Assembly (NCBI RefSeq): GCF_019391655.1 | Contig: NZ_JAHXPQ010000001.1 | Coordinates: forward strand, 372,001-436,000 | Direction of reading: 5' to 3' | Source of the DNA: Mucilaginibacter rivuli | GTDB lineage: Bacteria; Bacteroidota; Bacteroidia; Sphingobacteriales; Sphingobacteriaceae | DNA length: 64,000 bases | Part shown: in pieces, positions 53,177 to 53,622 of the stretch | Numbering within the stretch: the first letter of the stretch is position 1 | Layout of the letters: each line of letters opens with the position of its first letter | Made by a program: the position numbers and the translations under genes | Notes under the pieces: model-generated | Told to the model about the DNA's origin: nothing | What the model saw: the letters and a program-made list of their open reading frames with translations, nothing else | The model's database searches: none

Positions 53177-53249
53177 TGCGGGATGGAGCAGTTGGTAGCT
53201 CGTCGGGCTCATAACCCGAAGGTCGTAGGTTCGAGTCCTGCTCCCGCTA
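53177..53249 (+). tRNA. Initiator tRNA-fMet (CAT)
   Basis: Anticodon loop CTCATAA with anticodon CAT at 53210-53212. Two initiator hallmarks are present: three G-C pairs (GGG/CCC) next to the anticodon loop and a mismatched first acceptor pair (T53177 with T53248). T-loop TTCGAGT; discriminator A53249; CC follows but no encoded A. The 3' half is shared with the end of the inserted element. Confidence 0.93.
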
Positions 53250-53251
53250 CC
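53209..53251. other. Left attachment region of the integrated element (attL)
   Basis: The 3' part of tRNA-fMet, from the anticodon to the 3' end. On the minus strand it supplies the last codons (VAGAGLEPTTFGL, stop) of the recombinase gene, so the element joins the chromosome inside or at the end of the tRNA. No second copy of the tRNA 3' end was found in the window, so attR lies beyond 64000. Exact core length is unknown. Confidence 0.55.
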
Positions 53252-53622
53252 GAATTGGACAAAGCGAAATGATTAAGCCCAAAAGCAATCATTTCGCTTT
53301 TTTCGTTCAGGATAACTTGCTTCAAATGAGCAAGATGCAAAAACATCGGATTTATTCTTGTGGTTCGAGACTGGTCGTTTTCACGATCATAGGTAACCCC
53401 CTCGGGAAAGAGCATATTTTGCAGTCTTTGCTTGGTGTGGTAATCGGCAGAAAGCCACTTTTTAGGCATGTCTACAGCGAATTTCACCGCTAAGTTTACG
53501 CACTCCGTAAGGTTCGAGACTTTTTCAGATGCCTTTTGCAAGTTCTCTTCTATCTCCTCCATTTCCTCGTTATACTTTGCGATGTACTTATTAATACAAC
53601 TCGCTGGTGATGTCCTCCTCAA
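53209..53622 (-). pseudogene. Serine recombinase, C-terminal fragment (frame 3)
   Basis: The third piece of a split recombinase. It contains the C-terminal coiled coil (YNEEMEEIEENLQKASEKV) and the conserved tail ADYHTKQRLQNMLFPEGVTYD seen in Bacteroidota element recombinases, then a spacer and the tRNA-antisense end VAGAGLEPTTFGL. The preceding piece stops at a TAA near 53591; removing one T at about 53591-53596 would join SELY directly to NKYIAKYNEE. Its ATG 53622 is therefore not a natural start. Confidence 0.75.

Follow-up and report, generated by a model that had tools for sequence, protein, structure and literature searches.

Our analysis of a 64-kb stretch of DNA from Mucilaginibacter rivuli, a soil bacterium lineage (the window; G000:C1:372001-436000), showed that the 3' end of its tRNA-fMet gene is very probably the attL of a 33.16-kb mobilizable element, in which attP lies inside the 3' coding sequence of the large serine recombinase (LSR) gene and integration swaps the native C-terminal tail of the enzyme for a tail encoded by the tRNA. 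Both junctions, the inverted repeat, the reading frames, the conservation of the tail at the protein level and the recurrence of the arrangement across the phylum can be read directly from the DNA. The features that define the junction are as follows, in window coordinates unless a contig (C1) is named.

53177-53251, plus strand: tRNA-fMet, a tRNA-Met(CAT) gene found by ARAGORN, the integration target, with attL at its 3' end.
53209-53247, minus strand: host-derived recombinase 3' end, AGAGLEPTTFGL and stop, antisense to the tRNA (from the ORF list; the same antisense peptide occurs at unoccupied tRNA-fMet genes).
53247-53251, no strand assigned: CTACC, the final 5 nt of the tRNA; no other block is common to attL, attR and the inferred attP and attB.
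53247-53248, no strand assigned: predicted crossover core CT, from the inverted-repeat centre and the comparison of attL with attR.
53252-53263, plus strand: right arm of the attP inverted repeat, GAATTGGACAAA, from the attL/attR comparison.
C1:458396-458407 (window coordinate 86396-86407): left arm of the attP inverted repeat, TTTGTCCAATTC, an exact inverted copy of GAATTGGACAAA.

The target gene carries the initiator-type U1:U72 mismatch, and a single copy of the initiator tRNA gene was found in the M. rivuli genome. The minus-strand ORF at 53622-53209 terminates in VAGAGLEPTTFGL and a TGA stop, formed by the strand opposite to tRNA bases 53209-53211, within the anticodon loop. As the original prediction had stated, the last codons of the recombinase are antisense to tRNA-fMet and the overlap fixes the integration site; the share of the frame supplied by the tRNA is 12 codons and the stop, and the V codon that precedes them is encoded by the element.

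The other end of the element was located outside the window, with attR at C1:458412, which gives an element of 33,164 bp. The attR context reads AAAAAGTTCGAGATTTGTCCAATTCCGC-CTACC-TCAAATAAATGAAGCC..., followed by the native terminator, and the left arm stands 4 bp ahead of the TACC of attR. When the two ends were joined, the resulting attP was TTTGTCCAATTC-CGCCTACC-GAATTGGACAAA, a perfect 12-bp dyad with its centre between C and T. This centre places the crossover within CTACC, so that AGAGLEPTTFGL and its stop come from the host. The att sites have the short core, the absence of long repeats and the dyad-symmetric attP of a large serine recombinase. A duplicate of the tRNA 3' end had been expected at the right border, its absence being taken as grounds for refutation. 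No long repeat of this kind was found there or genome-wide with up to 3 mismatches allowed, and attR shares only CTACC with the tRNA, which is what is expected of a serine recombinase; thus, a refutation based on repeats is ill-suited to this system. Joining of the outer flanks gave an unoccupied tRNA-fMet gene followed by the terminator, resembling the unoccupied site of genome G136; over the right flank, 59 of 72 alignment columns matched, compared with 39-51 at four other unoccupied sites. The attP was inferred from the two ends, from tandem-type junctions and from degraded remnants; exact pattern searches of genome contigs and viral contigs revealed no intact free circular copy or attP, and a tail-containing peptide had no match in plasmids.

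When the LSR frame was read over the inferred attP, it continued from ...FALSNS into VGGIGQISNFLGDLKSIKEANIM and a stop. In relatives with both ends located, the corresponding tails, each ending in a stop, were VAREGHFTHRFVEDLRVLGSAFDEQTSY (G107), VAGAGLLSNRLVQDLQIFSTI (G125), VAPIGLNSNRFMQDLKLFTQLI (G063), VAPIRLKSNRLITDLQIFAAI (G048), VAPTGQISNHFFEDLKRLANISA (G027) and VAPIGLKSNRLMQDLQALSNV (G013); that of G036 was VVPTGQRSNFFADLQAIENAEEF... An in-frame tail spans attP in all eight attL/attR pairs or near-pairs of the genus. A profile of the paired-site tails recovered many further junctions in the genus, and the pattern V-x(4)-[QL]-x-SN-x(3,4)-DL is common to the eight paired sites and 31 distinct tails. 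Furthermore, head and tail are contiguous in the recombinase remnants of G103, G109 and G111, and G028 encodes an uninterrupted 593-aa recombinase bearing the native tail, which ends in ...WVTEDEEFSEHFMEDFKRL... (...FSEHFMEDFKRL...). The C-terminus is, therefore, expected to differ between the integrated and the free element, as predicted originally, but the proposal that it becomes complete upon integration was reversed by these results, in which the native tail lies across attP and would be joined to the enzyme on the circle.

Outside the genus, Sphingobacterium hungaricum has two recombinase genes with 3' ends that are identical as far as GGGTAC, after which one enters tRNA-Leu and the other enters a native-type tail, one base out of the recombinase frame. 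Two tails of S. hungaricum were the exception in inverted-repeat and model searches for attR in downstream stretches, which found none for the elongator-Met elements or for those of G039 and G019.

To assess selection on the tail we used 25 of the 31 distinct tails, which form the commoner length class, and codons 9-17, which are distal to the att motif. These codons gave a pN/pS ratio of 0.44 (bootstrap 0.37-0.52), and the ratio rose to 1.32 and 2.07 when the frame was shifted. Of the 25 tails, 24 have Asp at codon 13 and all have Leu at codon 14, with synonymous variation at the third position. The difference between the true and the shifted frames shows that the native tail is translated and selected as a peptide. 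This selection shows that the tail matters, from which a regulatory role of the swap does not follow. It is, in fact, quite possible, if not the reading that we prefer, that placement of attP in the gene reflects economical packing, with the last ~20 residues dispensable, both protein forms equivalent and the swap without consequence. The structural part of this explanation is identical to that of the tail-swap reading, and the two disagree on function alone. While most occupied relatives retain long intact recombinase frames despite loss of the native tail, and the invariant TCGAAC codons are explained by the att DNA motif alone, both as packing would have it, dispensability is harder to reconcile with the clear protein-level constraint beyond that motif and with the presence of the tail in the uninterrupted recombinase of G028.

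Antisense ORFs that reach into tRNA genes are a frequent annotation artefact, and the true end of the recombinase might likewise precede the tRNA. We consider this highly unlikely, since a stop codon ahead of the tRNA is lacking in all of the occupied relatives listed, the register is equal for six tRNA isotypes and the same frame continues into the conserved tail on the inferred circle. Relatives whose tRNA-fMet genes are unoccupied have antisense frames of only 13-66 codons at these loci, mostly below 40, and not a recombinase frame, as the prediction required, whereas occupied tRNA-fMet genes of the genus have recombinase frames of up to 547 codons with one common end point. Judged from these frame lengths, the overlap of LSR and tRNA exceeds chance.

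A design like that of tyrosine integrases, with the full tRNA 3' half in attP and a C-terminus that is equal in both states, is the least credible explanation and can be set aside almost entirely: it is the usual layout for islands in tRNA genes and the junction at G104:C22 does begin in the anticodon loop, but a second tRNA 3' half is missing from the M. rivuli genome, every attR found for the family (eight genomes) shares just ~5-10 bp with the tRNA, the centre of the inverted repeat sets the crossover between C and T, and the T-stem variants of G013 and G020 agree with the host tRNA alleles.

Several other arrangements were observed at these loci. G104:C22 was considered as an attR of the LSR family and rejected, because the attR of other genomes share just the last 5-10 bp; its tRNA-fMet copy (G104:C22:16296) starts in the anticodon loop, which is typical of a tyrosine-integrase island at tRNA-fMet. 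G027 carries tandem ~124-bp partial tRNA-fMet 3' halves downstream of the tRNA-fMet gene (G027:C1:4271625-4272145), in which the anticodon arm is altered. Tails of the attR type are clustered, 75 bp to 1.3 kb apart, at several loci (C1:457075 and 458412; G063:C2:570006 and 570104; G020:C18:9692 and 9873; L230; L245), and these stacks look as if successive elements had entered and left one tRNA gene.

The LSR 3' end is antisense within a tRNA gene in 57 of the best 80 relatives in the genome collection, which are Bacteroidota, and the tRNAs entered are initiator and elongator Met, Phe, Leu, Arg, Ala and Glu, with the register V-x-x-x-G-[ILVF]-E-P kept in most of the overlapping relatives. The initiator tRNA, to which special weight had been given as an essential target, is thus one of at least six isotypes entered, probably through the near-universal T-loop. 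Neither the sequence of the T-loop nor its spacing from the 3' end varies much among tRNAs, which fits the presence of LSR 3' ends in several isotypes. In 35 of 37 tails, 17 nt separate the end of TTCGAN from the core of attP, and in tRNA-fMet 12 nt separate the end of the T-loop TTCGAG from the core, a shift of 5 bp. The structure and mutants of LI integrase showed that the motif for the zinc domain is likewise shifted 5 bp inward from attP to attB (PMC3783163). This spacing suggests that the zinc-ribbon domain of the LSR probably reads the T-loop motif TTCGA.

Rather than forming one intact gene, the recombinase of M. rivuli was found to be split by two frameshifts over three overlapping frames.

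54352-54822, minus strand: N-terminal LSR fragment with the resolvase catalytic domain (PF00239), from ORF and Pfam analysis.
53591-54373, minus strand: middle LSR fragment with the Recombinase domain (PF07508) and a zinc ribbon (PF13408; match scored below the curated cut-off), from ORF and Pfam analysis.
53209-53622, minus strand: C-terminal LSR fragment in the third frame, an ORF homologous to the 3' end of a related recombinase.

Across the three fragments the resolvase, Recombinase and zinc ribbon domains follow one another in the order of a large serine recombinase. When aligned to an intact relative, the first and second pieces fell into separate frames; the third matched the 3' end of another relative. 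The middle fragment has relatives that are 51-61% identical across nearly its whole length, and intact relatives of the LSR have 519-612 codons. Mucilaginibacter oryzae DSM 19975 and M. galii CCM 8711 have an uninterrupted recombinase at tRNA-fMet. With its LSR in three frames, the M. rivuli copy must, assembly errors aside, be regarded as a relic, and the element is unlikely to be mobile.

The element also encodes functions for DNA transfer.

55852-57318, minus strand: conjugative coupling protein, a VirD4/TraG-type ATPase (PF02534).
61887-62717, plus strand: MobA/VirD2-like relaxase (PF03432).

The presence of both genes inside the 33-kb att-bounded segment identifies an integrative mobilizable or conjugative element; no type IV secretion system genes were seen by Pfam among the 20 element proteins scanned, a subset of the ORFs. 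Other genes of the element include SIR2 paired with HerA, a combination known from anti-phage defence (C1:451639-455005; window ~79639-83005), for which the best PADLOC matches had E=9e-237 (HerA) and E=7e-137 (SIR2). A novel-STAND NTPase (PF25199, nSTAND5) is encoded at 59472-60662 on the plus strand, without a PADLOC match. Finally, an intact second serine recombinase of 568 aa (C1:447130-448836) belongs to a different subfamily, has a SHOCT-like match and ends outside tRNA genes.

The open-access literature yielded only two close precedents, a remark on DsiB and the archaeal suicidal integrases. DsiB, a serine recombinase specific for ssrA, belongs to genomic islands of Dehalococcoides (McMurdie et al. 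2011; PMC3146451). The 3' end of its gene always overlaps attL, without a stop inside the island, and the authors suggested that full function may be confined to the circular form. Like DsiB, the LSR adjoins attL and its 3' end overlaps the target RNA gene. However, DsiB targets the T-loop of tmRNA with 20-bp direct repeats, the enzyme is CcrB-like, and divergent C-termini were reported for it without a conserved native tail, whereas in the Bacteroidota LSR the tail is known, shows conservation at the protein level and could be paired with attL. The present element differs from a DsiB/ssrA-type module in having a tRNA as its target, and neither a DsiA-like small serine recombinase nor a ParB/Mom module was found by Pfam scans of the 20 element proteins. 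In the archaeal suicidal (SSV1-type) integrases, which have been described as exclusive to archaea, the integrase gene itself contains attP and is split upon integration (PMC8371274). The LSR shares this location of attP, with head and tail separated at attL and attR in eight genomes. But the archaeal enzymes are tyrosine recombinases with the catalytic domain split off, while in the LSR the exchange affects only the extreme C-terminus, and the gene runs on into the tRNA; having serine recombinase domains, the LSR works like a suicidal integrase without being a member of that group. To these precedents the Bacteroidota LSR adds a counterpart among serine recombinases, one whose native tail is defined and conserved.

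Two further systems are similar in part. Integration-dependent immunity of mycobacteriophage BPs and its relatives also involves an attP in a coding gene and a protein C-terminus that is altered upon integration (PMC4557955), although the altered protein is a repressor, in contrast to the recombinase itself in Bacteroidota. The Listeria LI/A118-type integrases resemble the LSR in domain order, short core and 5-bp displacement of the zinc motif (PMC3783163). Their targets are protein genes, unlike the tRNA genes of the Bacteroidota LSR. To our knowledge, an attP inside the integrase gene is not known among them.

In the mechanism that we propose, the recombinase would join attP to the tRNA 3' end (attB) by a crossover in CTACC, with its zinc-ribbon domain contacting TTCGA 12 nt (tRNA) or 17 nt (attP) from the core. 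Integration rebuilds the tRNA end and strips the LSR of its native conserved ~20-codon tail, which is left behind at attR and replaced by 12 antisense tRNA codons and a stop; excision would bring the native tail back. The native-tailed enzyme would be made on the circle and integrate, and the integrated gene would yield the tRNA-tailed enzyme. The two forms may differ in activity, the native form being suited to integrate and the tRNA-tailed form being impaired or redirected. Directionality of serine integrases depends on contacts of the zinc domain and the coiled coil (PMC3783163), so the tail, which adjoins the zinc domain, could plausibly influence excision. We tentatively suggest a Bacteroidota LSR family in which attP in the enzyme's own gene, a zinc site in the T-loop and hopping among tRNA isotypes come together with a tail swap that might act as a direction-setting state switch.

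Genome engineering makes wide use of serine integrases, and what prevents reversal of their reaction is a central question, for which a family with a C-terminus altered by integration would offer a direct test of the tail's contribution to directionality. The tail swap accounts for annotated recombinases with ends such as AGLEPTTFGL or GIEPATQGFSVLCSTN, and database entries taken from integrated copies would lack the native C-terminus, which is relevant to tool mining. Altogether, the arrangement would explain how one enzyme family targets many tRNA genes without harm.
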